This document shows positions 15,894 through 57,468 of a DNA stretch of 62,731 nucleotides, piece after piece (position 1 is the stretch's first letter; each line of letters opens with the position of its first letter). The notes beneath the pieces are model-generated. The model had not been told where the DNA came from and made no database searches. It saw nothing but the letters and a program-made list of their open reading frames with translations. Where the stretch lies: positions 1 through 62,731 of the forward strand of contig NZ_QXIL01000013.1 in assembly GCF_004115745.1 (NCBI RefSeq), given 5' to 3'. A program made the position numbers and the translations under genes. This stretch comes from Levilactobacillus suantsaii (GTDB lineage Bacteria > Bacillota > Bacilli > Lactobacillales > Lactobacillaceae).

Positions 15894-16733
15894 ATGCAAG
15901 TACCAGAACTAACCTTAAATGATGGCTACCAGATGCCAGCCGTGGGACTGGGCACTTACCAGGTCCGTGGGGGCCAAGGCGTTAACCAGATTCTCGCCGC
16001 CATTCGCGACGGGTACCGCAGTTTAGATACCGCCACGAATTACGATAATGAAGGGGCCGTGGGTGAAGCGATTCGCCGCTCAGGTCTGCCCCGTTCGGCA
16101 TTTTTCGTGACGTCTAAGTTACCTGGCAAGTACCACCAGTATGATGACGCGACCATCTCGATTCAAGAATCCTTGTACCGGATGGGTCTCGACTATTTCG
16201 ACCTGTTTTTGATTCACTGGCCACTGCCGAAGCGTGACCATTACGTGGAAGCTTGGCGCGCCATGATTGACGCTCAAAAGCGGGGCTTGATTCGATCGAT
16301 TGGGGTCTCCAACTTCGAACCGGAACACTTGGACCGGATCATCAAGGAGACCGGCGTGACGCCGGCCGTCAACCAAATTGAAGTGCACCCGTACTGGGTC
16401 CAAGAACGGATGCGCAAGGCCGATTTGGAACGGGGCATCGTGACGGAAGCTTGGAGTCCACTTGGCCGGGGCAGTGCTGCGTTGCAAGAACCAATGATTA
16501 AGCAATTGGCCGAGAAATACCAGAAGAACGTGGGCCAAATCATCTTGCGTTGGCACACCCAACGGGGTATCGTGCCAATCCCGAAGGCCCAACACCTCCA
16601 ACACCAACGGGCGAACATCGATATCTTCGACTTTAGCCTGACCAAAGACGAAATCGAAGCCATCAACGCCTTGAGTAAACCGGATGGTCGGGTTGACGGG
16701 CAAGATCCTAACGTTTACGAAGAATTTGAATAA
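15894..16733 (+). CDS. aldo/keto reductase
   Basis: A 279-residue NADPH-type aldo/keto reductase of the 2,5-diketogluconate-reductase-like group. The catalytic tetrad is visible: Asp in YRSLDTATNY, Tyr in ATNYDNE, Lys in VTSKLPG, and His in LIHWPLP. The coenzyme-binding IPKAQH segment is near residue 220. AAAGGATG precedes the start. It has its own terminator. It probably reduces small aldehydes or ketones; the physiological substrate is unknown. Confidence 0.92.
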   Translation: MQVPELTLNDGYQMPAVGLGTYQVRGGQGVNQILAAIRDGYRSLDTATNYDNEGAVGEAIRRSGLPRSAFFVTSKLPGKYHQYDDATISIQESLYRMGLDYFDLFLIHWPLPKRDHYVEAWRAMIDAQKRGLIRSIGVSNFEPEHLDRIIKETGVTPAVNQIEVHPYWVQERMRKADLERGIVTEAWSPLGRGSAALQEPMIKQLAEKYQKNVGQIILRWHTQRGIVPIPKAQHLQHQRANIDIFDFSLTKDEIEAINALSKPDGRVDGQDPNVYEEFE

Positions 16734-16742
16734 GTAATGAGC

Positions 16743-16774
16743 AAGTGACCGGACCTGGTGCCGGTCACTTTTTT
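16743..16774 (+). terminator. terminator after the aldo/keto reductase
   Basis: AAGTGACCGG pairs with CCGGTCACTT, followed by T residues. Confidence 0.92.
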
Positions 16775-16918
16775 GTAGAGAAAATAAATAAGCCTCCGTA
16801 AGACTAGTAACCGTAACGATATGTTCGGGGTGAACTCTTTTCTGTGGTTGCTTAATTTTAGTAAGTGTCGTAAACTCACGTGTGATACTAATCACAAAAA
16901 AGAAGGAAGTTGATCGTT

Positions 16919-17662
16919 ATGACGGATCGTTTACAGGACAAAGTGGCAATTATTACTGGCGGCGTCGCCGGTATTGGTTTGGGTATCGCGGAATGCTACG
17001 TGCGTGAAGGTGCCAAGGTCGTCTTGACTGCCAACCATAACGTGGACGGTGGTAAGGCCGCCGTGGCTAAGTTTGGTGATGACGTCAGTCTGTTCATCCA
17101 ACAGGATGTCGCCGTTGAAGCCGATTGGCAACGGGTCATCAAAGAGACCCTGGACAAATTTGGTCGGCTTGATATCGTGGTCAATAACGCGGGGATTGCG
17201 CCGGAAGTTAAGCCCGTCGACCAGGAAAGCTATGCGGACTGGAAAAAGGTCATCAACGTTAATTTAAACGGCAACTTCCTGGGTGTGAAGTATGGAATGC
17301 AGACCATGAAGGGCAAGGGCGGTTCCATCATCAACGTGTCCTCCATCGAAGGTTTTGTCGGCACGGTCAACGCCGCACCCTACAATGCCAGCAAGGGTGG
17401 TACTCGGTTATTGACCAAGGCTGCAGCCCTAGATTCGGCTGCTAATCAATACAATGTCCGGGTCAACTCGGTGCACCCGGGCTTTATCCAAACGCCAATC
17501 TTGACCCCAGAAGTTGTGGATGTGGCAACGAAGTTAACGCCAGTTGGTCACATTGGTCAACCGAAGGATATCGGTGAAATCTGTGTCTACTTGGGGTCTG
17601 ACGAATCCTCATTTGCGACCGGCTCCGAGTTTGTCGTTGACGGCGGCTTCATCGCCCAATAA
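16919..17662 (+). CDS. short-chain dehydrogenase resembling L. brevis R-specific alcohol dehydrogenase
   Basis: A 247-residue classical SDR. Motifs are [12 protein letters not shown] (nucleotide), NNAG, the catalytic Ser in VSSIEGFVG and YNASKG. It resembles the Mg-dependent R-specific ADH of L. brevis, including the C-terminal VDGGFIAQ in which the last Gln ligates Mg. At the position where the L. brevis enzyme has TGRHSD with the NADP-binding arginine, this protein has TANHNV, so coenzyme preference is uncertain. The ATG is 9 bases after AAGGAAG. It lies downstream of the aldo/keto reductase but in a separate transcript. Confidence 0.92.
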
Positions 17663-51353: not shown

Positions 51354-52085
51354 ATGATGACAGAATTAGTCTACCGCCGGGTGATGCGGGACCTTAAAAA
51401 ACGGATTTTAAACGGGGAATTTACCACCAAAAAACTCCCAGATGAGCGCAGCTTGAGTGCGACCTATCAGGTGAGTCGCAGTACCATGAAACGCGCAATG
51501 GAGATTTTAGTCGACCAGGGCATCATCTTTAAGAAGCGGGGCGCGGGGACCTTTATTAATCCACTATACTTGAAGGATCGTTCGGCTTTTCGCTACGAAG
51601 GCAAAAACTTGGGAATTACGGATAGCTTCCAGGCCAACGGCAAACCGACCAAAAGTCGCTTGCTGGATTACCGGGTCATCCCGGCAACGGCGGAGCTCCA
51701 GCAAGAACTTTTCTTGACGGAATCGGACTTCGTGTACGAAATCAAGCGCCTACGGTTGGTGGCTGATAAGCCCGTAATTATCGAAACGGGATACATCCCG
51801 ATTAAGATTTTGCCCACGTTAACGCCCGCGGTGGCCCAAAGCTCGATTTTTAGCTACGTCCAAGACGTGCAGGGACAAACGGTCAACCGCGCCTTCTTGT
51901 CGATTCACGTTCAACCGTCGACAGCGGAGGATCAAGACCTCTTGCATCTCAAGCCAATCGAACCGGTCGGAGTGATGAGTGGAATCTTCTTCTTGGACGA
52001 TGGCACCCCCTTTGAAGTGTCGACTATGCGGTTACATTACCGCGACTTGAAGTACGGCACTTTCGTGAATTTGAATGAAGATTAG
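51354..52085 (+). CDS. GntR-family regulator with UTRA domain (HutC subfamily)
   Basis: A 243-residue regulator. The N-terminal winged helix (LPDERSLSATYQVSRSTMKR near residues 27-46) and KKRGAGTFIN wing are followed by a UTRA ligand-binding domain (about 80-240) with RLRLVADKPVIIETGYIP. The HutC subfamily usually senses sugar phosphates or amino-acid derivatives. Two ATGs (51354 and 51357) follow GAGGGGAG. It precedes the phosphoketolase gene in the same direction but with its own terminator and a 442-base gap; control of phosphoketolase is possible but unproven. Confidence 0.9.
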   Translation: MMTELVYRRVMRDLKKRILNGEFTTKKLPDERSLSATYQVSRSTMKRAMEILVDQGIIFKKRGAGTFINPLYLKDRSAFRYEGKNLGITDSFQANGKPTKSRLLDYRVIPATAELQQELFLTESDFVYEIKRLRLVADKPVIIETGYIPIKILPTLTPAVAQSSIFSYVQDVQGQTVNRAFLSIHVQPSTAEDQDLLHLKPIEPVGVMSGIFFLDDGTPFEVSTMRLHYRDLKYGTFVNLNED

Positions 52086-52527: not shown

Positions 52528-54987
52528 ATGGCAGTAGATTTCGATTCCAAGTCCTACTTGGAAAAAGTTGACGCTTGGTGGCGTGCAACGACCTATCTTT
52601 CTGGTGGGATGATTTTCTTGAAAGACAACCCACTGTTTTCTGTTACCAACACACCAATCAAAAAAGAGGACGTTAAGGTTAAGCCTATCGGACACTGGGG
52701 AACCATTTCCGGTCAAACGTTCTTATACGCACATGCGAACCGTCTGATCAACAAGTACGGTTTGAACATGTTCTATATCGGTGGCCCAGGTCACGGTGGC
52801 CAAGTTATGGTCACGAACTCTTACTTGGATGGCACTTACACGGATGCTTTCCCAGAAATCACCCAGGACCTTGCCGGGATGGCAAAATTATACAAGCGGT
52901 TCTCCTTCCCAGGTGGAATTGGCTCGCATATGACGGCCCAAACCCCAGGTTCCTTGCATGAAGGTGGGGAATTAGGTTACTCCCTGTCCCACGCTACGGG
53001 TGCCGTTTTAGATAACCCAGACCAAATCGCCTTTACGGTTGTTGGTGATGGGGAAATGGAAACTGGCCCGGCCATGACGGCGTGGAACTCCATCAAGTTC
53101 TTGAACCCTAAGAACGACGGTGCTGTTTTACCAATCTTAGATTTGAACGGGTTCAAGATTTCCAACCCAACGCTCTTCTCCCGGATGGACGATGAACACA
53201 TCACGAAGTTCTTTGAAGGCTTAGGCTGGTCACCACGGTTCATCGAAAACGATGATATCCATGACTACATGACTTATCACGAAAAGGCAGCGGCCGTCTT
53301 CGACCAAGCCATCGCTGATATTCAACAAATCCAAAAAGACGCCCGTGAAAACGGTAAGTACGAAGACGGCGAAATCGCCCCGTGGCCAGTTGTTGTGGCC
53401 CGCTTACCAAAGGGTTGGGGTGGCCCAACGCACAACCCAGCCGGCGAACCAATCGAAAACTCATTCCGGGCCCACCAAGTTCCGCTTGGCTTATCCCAGA
53501 ACAACTTCGACGAATTACCAGAATTCGAAGCTTGGATGAACTCATACAAGCCTGCTGAATTATTCAACACCGATGGAACCTTGAAGGCTGAAGTCGCTGA
53601 CTTTGCGCCTAAGGGTGACAAGCGGATGGCTGCTAACCCAATCGCCAATGGTGGTCGGCGTCGTGGCGAAAAGCCAACGTTGTTAGACTTACCAGACTGG
53701 AAGAGCTACGCCAACGACATTACCGCTGATAACCGTGGGACGAACTTGCCAGATGGCAACCAAAACATGGATATGAACGTCTTGTCGAAATTCTTCGCTG
53801 GCGTGGCCACGAAGAACCCATCATCCTTCCGGGTATTTGGCCCAGATGAAACCATGTCCAACCGGCTTTGGGAAATGTTCAAGATTACCAACCGTCAGTG
53901 GGAAAGCAAGGTCAAGGAACCAAATGACCAATACGAAGCCCCTGAAGGCCGGATCTTGGATGCTCAATTGTCCGAACACCAAGCAGAAGGCTGGTTAGAA
54001 GCTTACACCTTGACTGGTCGTCAAGGGATCTTCGCTTCTTACGAATCCTTCTTGCGGGTCGTGGACTCCATGATCACCCAACACTTCAAGTGGATCCGTC
54101 AGGCTGCTGACGAACCATGGCACAATGATTACCCATCATTGAACCTGATTTCCACTTCGACTGTGTTCCAACAAGACCACAACGGTTACACCCACCAAGA
54201 TCCAGGTATCTTGACCCACTTAGCCGAAAAGAAATCCGACTTCGTGCGTCAATACCTGCCAGCCGATGCCAACTCATTATTGGCTGTCTTTGACCGGGCC
54301 TTCAAGGACCGGCAAAAGGTTAACCACATCGTGGCTTCCAAGCAACCACGGCAACAATGGTTCTCCGTTGATGAAGCCGAAGAATTGGCCACTGAAGGTA
54401 TCAAGACGATCGACTGGGCTTCCACCGTTGCTGAAGGCGAAGATGCTGATATCGTCTTTGCTTCCGCTGGTGTTGAACCAACGATCGAAACCTTGGCTGC
54501 CGTTGACTTGATCAACGACGCCTTCCCAGCCGTTAAGATGCGTTACGTCAACGTGGTTGAATTAGGTCGTCTGCAAAGCAAGAACGGTCAATTGAACTCC
54601 GAACGGGCCTTGTCTGATGCCAAGTTCAGCGCATTGTTCGGTGCTTCTGGCACGCCAGTTGTCTTTGGCTTCCACGGCTACGAAGACTTAATCGAATCCA
54701 TGTTCTACGAACGTCAACACTTAGGTTTACACGTGCATGGTTACCGTGAAGATGGTGACATCACCACGGCTTACGACATGCGGGTATACTCCGAGCTTGA
54801 CCGGTTCCACCAAGCTAAGGATGCTGTTAGCGTCTTAGTGAACAAGGGTGTGATTGACGAAGCCGCTGCGAAGGCCTTCGACAAGAAGATGGATGACATC
54901 TTAGCTAAGCACTTTAAGGTTACGCGTGACGAAGGTCATGATATTGAAGAATTCACGAAGTGGCAATGGACGCCATTGAAGAAGTAG
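52528..54987 (+). CDS. xpkA: xylulose-5-phosphate/fructose-6-phosphate phosphoketolase
   Basis: Thiamine-diphosphate enzyme that splits xylulose 5-phosphate with phosphate into acetyl phosphate and glyceraldehyde 3-phosphate, the key step of heterolactic fermentation. The 819-residue length is typical. Signatures include [20 protein letters not shown] near residue 145, the ThDP-binding [17 protein letters not shown] near 172 and the [10 protein letters not shown] segment. [15 protein letters not shown] near 430 and [12 protein letters not shown] near 550 follow. Codon use is strongly biased, as in highly expressed genes. GAAGGAG precedes the ATG. It is monocistronic, with two terminators behind it. 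Confidence 0.97.
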
Positions 54988-55051
54988 TCTTCAATCAAAA
55001 ACTAAAGTACCGTAATGCGGACAGCTTGCTGTCATAGGTTGCGGTCATTGG

Positions 55052-55085
55052 ACCAGGACTCCCAATGGGGGTCCTGGTTTTTGTG
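55052..55085 (+). terminator. phosphoketolase terminator 1
   Basis: ACCAGGAC pairs with GTCCTGGT around a CCC/GGG inner helix, followed by TTTT. Confidence 0.92.
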
Positions 55086-55102
55086 TCATGAAGTGACTAT
55101 AG

Positions 55103-55147
55103 AAAAGGTGCGTCGAAAATCGAATGATCTTCGGCGCACCTTTTTGA
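55103..55147 (+). terminator. phosphoketolase terminator 2
   Basis: AAAAGGTGCG pairs with CGCACCTTTT around an inner TCGA/TCGG helix, followed by T residues. It marks the left edge of the AT-rich island. Confidence 0.9.
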
Positions 55148-55158
55148 TTTGTAGCTGA

Positions 55159-55180
55159 GGCTCTTTGTCAATCAGTGTTG
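55159..55180 (+). repeat. ISL3-type terminal inverted repeat remnant
   Basis: GGCTCTTTGTCAATCAGTGTTG closely matches the terminal repeat at 56073-56100 (AGCTCTTTGTCAACCAGTGTTG) in the same orientation, and the inverted end at 56463-56490. No transposase adjoins this copy. Confidence 0.7.
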
Positions 55181-55194
55181 CTAAGCTTTAATTA

Positions 55195-55252
55195 AGTATT
55201 CGCGTCAACCAATCCCGTGATTTCAATCATGGGATTGGTTGACGCGAATACT
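55195..55252. repeat. 58-base near-perfect palindrome
   Basis: AGTATTCGCGTCAACCAATC continues to a 26-bp arm (55195-55220), pairs with 55227-55252 (ending GACGCGAATACT) with one G-U pair, and has loop TTTCAA. An outer imperfect repeat flanks it: TGTCAATCAGTGT (55166-55178) against ACAGTGATTGACA (55256-55268). There is no T-run, so it is not a plain terminator. Confidence 0.85.
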
Positions 55253-55289
55253 AATACAGTGATTGACATTTACTAAGCTAGCGTGTAGT

Positions 55290-55317
55290 TTGACAGATGG
55301 TTGATTTTTTCTAATAC
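55290..55317 (+). promoter_or_regulatory. promoter of the secreted-protein gene
   Basis: A consensus TTGACA and TAATAC are 16 bases apart, 20 bases before the start codon region. GAGGAG at 55326-55331 is a strong ribosome binding site. Confidence 0.7.
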
Positions 55318-55337
55318 ATAAACGCGAGGAGCTTTAC

Positions 55338-55853
55338 ATGACAAAACATAGCAAGATTATTACTTTGTTGGCAACTGGCGCAGTGGCTTTATCAATTAGT
55401 GGTACAGCATCATACGCGCTTGGACCAATAGTAGCAAATGCGGATACTGTTGAAAATACAGCGGCCAATACCGTGAACAAAGAGTTGAGTATGGCTATTT
55501 CGCGGGTTACTCCTATTGACGTAAATGTGGCGCAAGTCGATATGGATAATGCAGAAATGTTACAACGATACAAACTTATCGATCCAATTGGCTACAGTAA
55601 AATTCCACAACCGTATATTAAAAGCCTGCTTATGGAAAATTTACTTGACCAAGGTACAACTAAATATATTAAGGAGAAACACGGTCACTATCGAATTTAT
55701 ATAAATAGTGCAATTGTTAAGGGGATTAAAGCTGGCTACTTGGCTGTTGCTGTTGGTTCAGCAATTGCCAGTGCAATTAGTTCTGTTCCGTCTAATCGTG
55801 GGGCATGGTTTGAGTTTAGCAAATCAGGACTAGTTAAAATGGGTAAGCAATGA
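55338..55853 (+). CDS. secreted protein of unknown function, bacteriocin-like architecture
   Basis: A 171-residue protein with a clear Sec signal peptide: basic MTKHSK, a hydrophobic core and a cleavage site after ALGPIVANA (about residue 35). The mature part is about 136 residues: an N-terminal polar helical segment, the HGHYRIYINSAIVKGIKAG strand-helix region near residue 118, and a small-residue-rich hydrophobic helix (YLAVAVGSAIASAISSV). It ends with NRGAWFEFSKSG and KMGKQ. That C-terminal layout is like several Gram-positive secreted bacteriocin-type peptides. I recognise no named family. The base composition is AT-rich, unlike neighbours. It is followed by an overlapping small membrane gene, and IS remnants lie on both sides. 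Confidence 0.7.
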   Translation: MTKHSKIITLLATGAVALSISGTASYALGPIVANADTVENTAANTVNKELSMAISRVTPIDVNVAQVDMDNAEMLQRYKLIDPIGYSKIPQPYIKSLLMENLLDQGTTKYIKEKHGHYRIYINSAIVKGIKAGYLAVAVGSAIASAISSVPSNRGAWFEFSKSGLVKMGKQ

Positions 55854-55999
55854 ATATGTCAATCAAAAGATGGATTATCTTACTGAGCATATGGTGTGTT
55901 TTATCTGCGATTTTTTTATATTGGCATGTTACGTCTATCGTTATTGGATGTACCATAGGCTGTGGACTGTATATCTACAAAGTTATCTCAAGAAAGTAA
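55850..55999 (+). CDS. 49-residue membrane protein coupled to the secreted protein
   Basis: The ATG overlaps the upstream stop as ATGA, so translation is coupled. The protein starts MNMSIKRWIILLSIWCVLSA, has two hydrophobic segments (about residues 8-24 and 27-44) and ends YKVISRK. Basic residues at both ends favour a hairpin with both termini inside. Small two-helix proteins beside secreted toxins often act as immunity or export-accessory proteins. That role is inferred. The gene is AT-rich like its partner. Confidence 0.65.
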   Translation: MNMSIKRWIILLSIWCVLSAIFLYWHVTSIVIGCTIGCGLYIYKVISRK

Positions 56000-56072
56000 G
56001 CTATTTGAGACTTTAGGCTTCAATCCCATGTAGGGTGAGAGACCAATCCCTGATTGCTTGTCTTATTTTCAT
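56000..56072 (+). other. short spacer before the IS remnant
   Basis: It contains CAATCCCATG and CCAATCCCTGATTG, echoing the CCAATCCC unit of the large palindrome upstream. No gene is visible. Confidence 0.3.
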
Positions 56073-56490
56073 TAGCTCTTTGTCAACCAGTGTTGATGAG
56101 GAGTGCTACTGGAATCCAATTCACTTTCGAGTTGGGTTCCTTTTCTTTAGTCTGATTTTGAATTCAAGTTGAATGTGGTAACTAAAACTTTGCCAATTAC
56201 GATAACCATCTGCTGTTCGCTTAATCTGTTTTATGTTGCGATTTATCCCTTCAATTGGGCCATTTGAGAGTGAACTATTAGGCATATTCTTGATTAACTG
56301 ACGGTTCCTGATAAGCATTTTAAGCATCGACTCAAGCTGAGGACTGATGTTTTAAGTGTTCTTAAGACTAGGGTTTAAAGCAGTATCATCCCGTTTGTTT
56401 GTAGTACACGGGCAGTGGCCTTTTTTTCGCCTCGCAACTAAAAATGGTGTTGATGACTTTTGTCCATCAACACCAAATATCAAAGAGCCG
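56073..56490 (-). mobile_element. ISL3-family insertion sequence remnant
   Basis: Inverted ends AGCTCTTTG...GTGTTGATGAG (56073-56100) and CCATCAACACC...CAAAGAGCC (56463-56490) bound a 418-base element. Inside is only a C-terminal transposase fragment on the minus strand. ISL3 elements are normally about 1.5 kb, so most of the interior has been deleted. Confidence 0.8.
56121..56327 (-). pseudogene. ISL3-family transposase, C-terminal fragment
   Basis: A 68-residue piece with the family signature SNGPIEGINRNIKQIKRTADG followed by YRNW, the region around the last catalytic Glu of the DDE domain. The frame is closed by a stop 10 codons upstream of the first ATG, so the N-terminal 350 or so residues are missing. 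It cannot be active. Confidence 0.85.
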
Positions 56491-56514
56491 CAATTGTTCT
56501 AACGGTTTAAATGA

Positions 56515-57468
56515 TTAATCAGCATTCTTTTCGGGGTCAACATCAATGACCAGTTTGCCAGCACTATGGCTAGTCTCACTGTGGCGGTGGGCGTCCCGTA
56601 GGCCTGCCGTGGTGAACGGAAAGACCTGATCGATGATGACGCGTAATTGACCGGCGACGACCATGTCACCTAAAATGGCCAACTCGCGACCGTTCGGTAG
56701 GAGCCACCAACTCGACACGTCTGGGCCCTGAGCCTTTTGAGCGTCGGTGGGGGCGCCGTCGATGGTGACCAAACGACCGGTGGGTTTCAACACGGCGATG
56801 CCGTCGTCAATGGCGTTAATGGTGTCGAACACCGCGTCGTAGTCGTGGAGCACGTCGGTAATCTTGGTGTCGTGGTAGTCAATGATGTGGTCGGCGCCAA
56901 TCGACTTTAACAGATCGTGGTGGTCGGCACTGGCCGTCGTGGTGACCTCAGCGCCAAGCGCCTTGGCAATTTGAATGGCGTTGAGGCCGACACCACCAGC
57001 GCCGGCCTGAATCAAGACCTTTTCACCGGCTTGGACCTTCAAACGGTCATGGATAACTTGGTAGGCAGTTAGGCCGGCTAGTGGCATGGCAGCCGCTTGT
57101 TCGAAGGAGAGTTCGGCGGGCTTATGGGCCAGCTTGTCTTCCTTCACCGCGGCAAACTCGGCGTAGGTGCCGCGCCGGCCATCGGCATAGATGTCGGGGC
57201 GCGCAAATACGTCGTCGCCGACCTTAAAGTCGTGAATCTTCGCGCCGACTTTGACAATGGTTCCGGCAAGGTCCCAACCCAGGACCACGGGAAAATCCCA
57301 ATCGAATTGAGACTTTAACAACCCTTGACGCGCTTTCCAGTCGATCGGGTTAATGCTGGTGGCGGCTACCGCGACCAAGACCTCGTCATCGGCAATCTCG
57401 GGTTGCGGTAAGGTCGTCATGTGTAACTCGTCGGGACTACCGTATTGATCAATAATTACTGCTTGCAT
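56515..57468 (-). CDS. NADP-dependent quinone/zinc-type alcohol dehydrogenase (MDR family)
   Basis: A 317-residue medium-chain dehydrogenase/reductase of the quinone oxidoreductase branch. A GroES-like N-terminal domain (ATSINPIDWKARQG near residue 36, VLGWDLAGTI, KVGDDVFA) is followed by a Rossmann domain with VLIQAGAGGVGLNAIQIAKALGA near residue 150. The zinc-binding cysteines are absent, so it is zinc-free. The ATG at 57468 is 10 bases after AAGGAGG. It probably reduces quinones or alpha,beta-unsaturated carbonyls. It borders the IS island. Confidence 0.9.
   Translation of the reverse strand: MQAVIIDQYGSPDELHMTTLPQPEIADDEVLVAVAATSINPIDWKARQGLLKSQFDWDFPVVLGWDLAGTIVKVGAKIHDFKVGDDVFARPDIYADGRRGTYAEFAAVKEDKLAHKPAELSFEQAAAMPLAGLTAYQVIHDRLKVQAGEKVLIQAGAGGVGLNAIQIAKALGAEVTTTASADHHDLLKSIGADHIIDYHDTKITDVLHDYDAVFDTINAIDDGIAVLKPTGRLVTIDGAPTDAQKAQGPDVSSWWLLPNGRELAILGDMVVAGQLRVIIDQVFPFTTAGLRDAHRHSETSHSAGKLVIDVDPEKNAD

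Follow-up and report, generated by a model that had tools for sequence, protein, structure and literature searches.

A secreted toxin-like protein and an overlapping membrane gene in Levilactobacillus suantsaii: a candidate bacteriocin/immunity pair of an unnamed family

The gene pair and its surroundings

The window analysed here is the whole stretch of 62,731 nucleotides from contig NZ_QXIL01000013.1 of Levilactobacillus suantsaii. It carries two overlapping genes for a secreted toxin-like protein and a small membrane protein (Table 1), and both frames, together with the ATGA overlap that joins them, are present as the original prediction had described them. The 171-aa protein begins with a signal peptide that is typical by eye, with a basic start, a hydrophobic core and Ala-Asn-Ala ahead of Asp36, and the 49-aa protein has the two hydrophobic segments expected of a two-helix protein by the hydropathy rule. 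The GAGGAG site was also found, six bases from the ATG of the large gene, and both genes are AT-rich as claimed (GC 39.4% for the 171-aa gene and 33.3% for the 49-aa gene, against 51.6% in the window). The promoter had been called strong, which overstates it: the −35 element TTGACA (55290-55295) is perfect, but the −10 element TAATAC (55312-55317) agrees with TATAAT at three of six positions, and a consensus scan of the region does not list the site. Promoter-like sites in the region number 5, against a mean of 4.7 (sd 2.3) in shuffled sequences, and are thus not in excess.

Both genes of the pair are real. They are not a product of chance, as relatives carry both genes and their coupling, and pN is lower than pS in the 171-aa ORF. 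One database protein, P0001, is a 206-aa version of the window protein; its sequence fits TGA stops read as Trp, followed by another frame through the stretch of the 49-aa gene, and it looks like a gene-calling artefact.

Table 1. Features of the gene pair and its flanks in the window.
Feature	Position	Strand	Basis
Single ISL3-type end, upstream flank	55160..55185		Repeat search
Promoter-like sequence: TTGACA, 16-base spacer, TAATAC (weak −10)	55290..55317	+	Sequence; unlisted in consensus scan
Ribosome-binding site GAGGAG	55326..55331	+	Sequence
Secreted toxin-like protein, 171 aa	55338..55853	+	ORF list, relatives, alignment
Signal peptide, residues 1-35	55338..55442	+	By eye
Conserved C-terminal domain, residues 106-171	55653..55850	+	Alignment; structure from model of relative P0002
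About 16 residues missing relative to relatives	55746..55751	+	Placement uncertain by a few residues
49-aa membrane protein with two hydrophobic segments, candidate immunity protein	55850..55999	+	ORF, hydropathy
ISL3-type element, internally deleted, both ends retained (56075-56100 and 56465-56488)	56075..56488		Repeat and profile search

ISL3 terminal repeats had been reported on both sides of the pair. Such ends do occur on either side, but they belong to remnants and not to intact elements. The ends at 55160-55185 and 56075-56100 are 88% alike, the opposite end at 56465-56488 is less similar, and a C-terminal fragment of an ISL3 transposase was detected by profile search inside the downstream element (56121-56327, minus strand). 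A near-perfect inverted repeat (55195-55252) with 28-nt arms, 96% complementary and 2 nt apart, separates the upstream ISL3 end from the promoter region; it matches no Rfam family at gathering score and has no further copy in the window.

The neighbouring large ORFs are an upstream gene of 819 aa (52528-54987), which from its sequence is presumably a phosphoketolase, and a zinc-type dehydrogenase gene. The two adjoin only across the ISL3 remnants (54987-56515), and in genome G1120 their matches are found on different contigs; an IS-linked rearrangement may have taken place between them. The nearest upstream regulator (GntR/UTRA, 51354-52085) is separated from the pair by the 819-aa gene. The 3′ end of this gene has a match in at least 32 of the 34 other genus genomes searched, and among those matches listed none continues into the gene pair. 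In genome G234, the copy of the pair (L002) lies about 245 kb away from the match to the upstream gene, and its large protein is the same as that of L. brevis CD0817 (L031).

The toxin-like family and its C-terminal domain

The toxin-like family has no credible sequence match in Pfam, NCBIfam, PADLOC or PDB. The window protein finds no Pfam family at E ≤ 10, and Pfam searches with 12 and 11 aligned sequences return chance-level matches only, with no LXG domain among them. The profile searches connect the large protein neither to any known toxin nor to a family with a clear non-toxin role, an outcome that leaves the original prediction standing on this point. Where its database matches are named, they are hypothetical or uncharacterized and in one case a “Secreted protein.”

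The distribution of the family is sparse. In the genus, the toxin-like protein is present in 4 of 35 genomes at E ≤ 0.01, the window's own included, two of these matches being weak. The single sequence used as query in the sample of the taxonomic family reaches 13 of 397 genomes at E ≤ 1e-3, own genome included, and 56 at E ≤ 1, mostly weakly, while the L054 protein matches 12 of 301 genomes of the taxonomic family at E ≤ 1e-3. A profile search of the order sample, in which the best candidates of a first pass were scored, gives at least 12 of 395 genomes, own included; in the phylum sample of 398 genomes, no credible match was obtained besides the own genome. Presence in so few genus genomes fits an accessory weapon better than a surface or structural protein.

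Conservation is concentrated in a C-terminal stretch of about 80 residues, which ends in a near-invariant Gln. In alignment A2 (21 sequences), Gly106, Asn123, Ser124, Ala125, Gly155, Trp157, Gly169, and Gln171 are invariant. Of 38 distinct tails, 36 terminate with Gln (5.1% of residues overall are Gln), and the two exceptions are one sequence with Lys after the Gln and one without the tail; P0001 and P0015 were excluded from this count beforehand and similar tails were collapsed. Among 43 uncurated family ORFs, fragments included, 35 end in Gln. Profile comparisons with two distant groups, A8 (probability 98.7, E 2e-16) and A7 (probability 96.5, E 8.7e-10), serve as consistency checks, since both groups were found via searches starting from the toxin-like family.

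The domain is ordered as hairpin, hydrophobic segment, hairpin, and terminal Gln. For the full-length relative P0002, AF2 predicts a beta-hairpin, three helices across the hydrophobic segment and a second beta-hairpin (mean pLDDT 70.9), with block values of 67-92 over residues 101-187 and the lowest confidence (67) at 141-150; the helices of this model fall within 71-102 and 124-165 and are accompanied by strands. Glycine zippers are not enriched among 38 sequences (strict form in 5 against 3.6 expected, relaxed form in 18 against 14.1); the strict form is present in P0002 and P0003, and the window copy has the relaxed form only. At locus L042, the domain forms the C-terminal end of a protein that is rich in repeats and measures 628 aa or more, an architecture that points to a modular build in the style of polymorphic toxins.

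The original prediction tacitly assumed an ordinary intact toxin, and here it has to be revised. The interval from Lys128 to Gly155 counts 26 residues in the window copy versus 42-59 in the 16 other distinct A2 segments; its hydrophobic segment lacks, in frame, about 16 residues kept by the others. Placed on the P0002 model, the missing stretch would comprise part of one helix, a turn and the beginning of the helix after it. The frame of 171 codons is open and the A2-invariant residues are kept. Compared with the L. brevis copy, the ORF has a purifying-type pattern (pN 0.28, pS 0.69, the latter near saturation), and the aligned codons from 61 to the end give pN 0.18 and pS 0.77; most of this history may predate the loss of the 16 residues. 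The shortening has probably weakened or altered the window toxin, and protection may now be the main use of the locus.

Small membrane genes beside intact and decayed relatives

Coupling of the two genes recurs in other genomes, as the original prediction would have it: a small multi-helix membrane ORF directly follows 29 of 43 distinct family ORFs but only 2 of 123 control ORFs, so that a secreted gene followed by a small immunity-type gene occurs at a frequency above chance. A partner was counted when it lay on the same strand, measured 35-130 aa, had at least two hydrophobic segments and started between −40 and +120 nt from the ORF end. The family ORFs were of at least 60 aa with no flank requirement, fragments and doubtful ones being included, and as relatives they are not independent; the controls were mechanically called ORFs, no shorter than 150 aa and followed by 300 nt or more of sequence, and some of them are surely not genes.

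The 14 family ORFs that miss the rule are of several kinds. L008 and L042 have small hydrophobic partners by eye, the partner at L045 has one segment, and that at L087 (66 aa, three segments) lies about 140 nt away. L044 has an open large gene with only a doubtful multi-helix partner at 213 nt, and at L038 and L041 the large gene is open with no multi-helix partner inside 250 nt. The remainder are L039, which is short and without partner, L004, whose gene is in two frames and is counted twice, the front pieces of L007, L086, and L088, and L051, which is probably unrelated to the family.

Most partners measure 40-130 aa, and those of distant loci are scarcely alike. The 49-aa protein and the L002 partner (L. 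brevis-type) are 32% identical (pairwise E 9e-9; E 1.1e-4 in the genome search). Constraint on the 49-aa gene is not readable from this comparison, as synonymous changes are saturated (pS 0.84, pN 0.44). At L005 (78-443), the downstream gene of 121 aa resembles, by eye, a tandem fusion of two L008-type partners.

At several loci an open membrane gene accompanies a large gene that is broken or of which a tip of about 20-30 codons is left; an immunity-type gene thus persists without an intact toxin. The large gene is frameshifted at L007, interrupted by three stops at L090 and by one at L091, and shorter, apparently through internal deletion, at L011 (compared with P0004) and L046 (compared with L040). 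L115 retains a toxin remnant in two frames (E 5.9e-23) about 700 nt ahead of the open membrane gene, and L114 a toxin tip only (weak, E 0.004). The window's own genome provides a further case on contig 5 (L096), where a tip that is 75% identical to the end of the L054 toxin (E 2.1e-4) stands beside an open membrane gene related to the L054 partner (pairwise E 4e-9). This eroded second locus (L096/L112, about 16687-17091) also has a 62-aa two-helix ORF after the membrane gene. At L053, a toxin and its membrane gene are followed by a toxin tip and then by another membrane gene. L104 has a gene related to that of the 49-aa protein (E 0.0028), and no toxin was found adjacent to it or elsewhere in genome G337.

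This asymmetry, with the large gene broken and the small one open, is expected of a toxin gene paired with an immunity gene; L038 and L041, with an open large gene and no recognised partner, represent the converse. The L096 membrane gene has relatives in 23 of 35 genomes. In a motif search of 15 loci with such a gene, a tip was recovered only beside that of the window genome and beside none of the 14 others, and a tblastn re-look at three of these 14 revealed remnants beside L114 and L115 and none beside L113. Some membrane genes of this type may have another role.

Interpretation and comparison with known systems

Taken together, the comparison of genomes establishes the family, the coupling and the open membrane genes beside decayed toxin genes, and the pair is probably a bacteriocin-type toxin with its immunity protein, Sec-secreted and membrane-active, of a family that has no name. 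Killing, the membrane target and the mode of immunity are extrapolated from toxins that depolarise membranes and from the membrane proteins that confer immunity to them (PMC12744356; PMC10434224). The large protein would be exported by the Sec route and its signal peptide then removed; the hydrophobic part of the C-terminal domain would insert into the membrane of nearby bacteria, making it leaky, and the two-helix small protein in the membrane of the producer would block insertion or assembly. The toxin/immunity reading of the original prediction is partly supported: the coupling and the damaged large genes beside open small ones favour it, but its promoter claim and its assumption of an intact toxin are not borne out.

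A secreted surface or structural protein, such as an adhesin, with the small membrane protein as its anchor or export helper, would agree with the membrane nature of the partners, with the repeat-rich protein that the domain ends at L042 and with the intact large genes at L038 and L041 that have no recognised partner. A helper should vanish with its client, yet small genes are still open beside large ones that are damaged or almost lost; this and the sparse distribution in the genus make such a protein unlikely. Still less probable, in our estimate a slim chance, is an exported precursor from which a signalling peptide is made, with the small membrane protein as receptor or processing partner. 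The signal peptide, the small membrane partner and the conserved extreme C terminus would suit it, but conservation spans about 80 residues and not a short peptide, the pair has no receptor gene coupled to it, the nearest regulator lies beyond the 819-aa gene, and a partner kept after loss of the precursor would be unexpected.

A different question is whether the toxin of the window still acts. The large gene could be a dead relic, with only the 49-aa immunity gene at work against related producers, a reading compatible with the bacteriocin/immunity interpretation and one to which we give slightly less than an even chance. The shortened hydrophobic segment speaks for it, as does the second locus of the same genome with its toxin tip and open membrane gene; the open frame, the retained invariant residues and the purifying-type pattern speak against it, the last perhaps reflecting mostly the time before the loss. 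The toxin may have been blunted and the immunity gene may be the part now kept, and a weakened toxin with kept immunity appears somewhat more likely than a working variant.

On the wider scale, it is about an even chance that these loci represent an unnamed Lactobacillales family of Sec-delivered antibacterial toxins, having a C-terminal domain of about 80 residues with a near-invariant final Gln and changeable small membrane immunity proteins, and being spread in addition in the form of orphan immunity genes and short toxin-tip arrays. If so, a class of antibacterial proteins exported by the Sec route, called hypothetical where they have a name, has been overlooked in lactic acid bacteria together with the matching immunity genes that accompany it. 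Its recognition would help to predict the coexistence of food and gut strains, and the near-invariant C-terminal Gln combined with changing partners would offer a handle on how specificity is set.

Among known systems, Sec-dependent class II bacteriocins and closticin 574 are exported by the Sec route, as predicted for the window protein, and the C-terminal active part of closticin 574 is cut from a longer precursor. The present family differs from them in matching no bacteriocin-family profile. A double-glycine-leader class II bacteriocin was rejected on the absence of a Gly-Gly leader, the protein having instead a 35-residue Sec-type signal peptide with an Ala-Asn-Ala end (by eye). A dedicated ABC exporter is another mark of that class; the look for one covered the two large ORFs next to the pair, which are the phosphoketolase and zinc-type dehydrogenase genes. 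With the lactococcin 972 family, the window protein would share a signal peptide, secretion by a Gram-positive bacterium as a bacteriocin and a proposed membrane immunity protein (PMC12345188). For mediterrocin, a member of that family, the same paper gives predicted beta strands and a cluster with a seven-helix DUF1430 protein, whereas the AF2 model of P0002 suggests a mixture of helices and strands and the partners here are mostly of 40-130 aa; membership was rejected, there being no such match in Pfam or NCBIfam. The Cdz system of Caulobacter likewise pairs secreted proteins resembling bacteriocins with a small immunity protein that spans the membrane, but it is Gram-negative and has type I secretion and two toxin proteins (PMC5380434).

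EsxX of S. aureus and TelE of S. gallolyticus are membrane-depolarising LXG toxins with immunity proteins (PMC12744356; PMC10434224), and a glycine zipper is a feature of some toxins of this kind. They differ from the window protein in their type VII secretion and LXG domain, in place of which it has a Sec-type signal peptide (by eye) and no Pfam match, and in their glycine zipper, which is not enriched across the present family; membership among the LXG or type VII glycine-zipper toxins was rejected, since Pfam found no N-terminal LXG domain. They resemble what is proposed for the window protein in being secreted antibacterial proteins with a membrane-active C-terminal part. The membrane immunity proteins of EsxX, ExiCD, also occur as orphans in toxin-less strains (PMC12744356). 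The orphan immunity genes and short tip arrays proposed for the present family would recall the immunity islands of type VII toxins, but in a setting that lacks the type VII machine.
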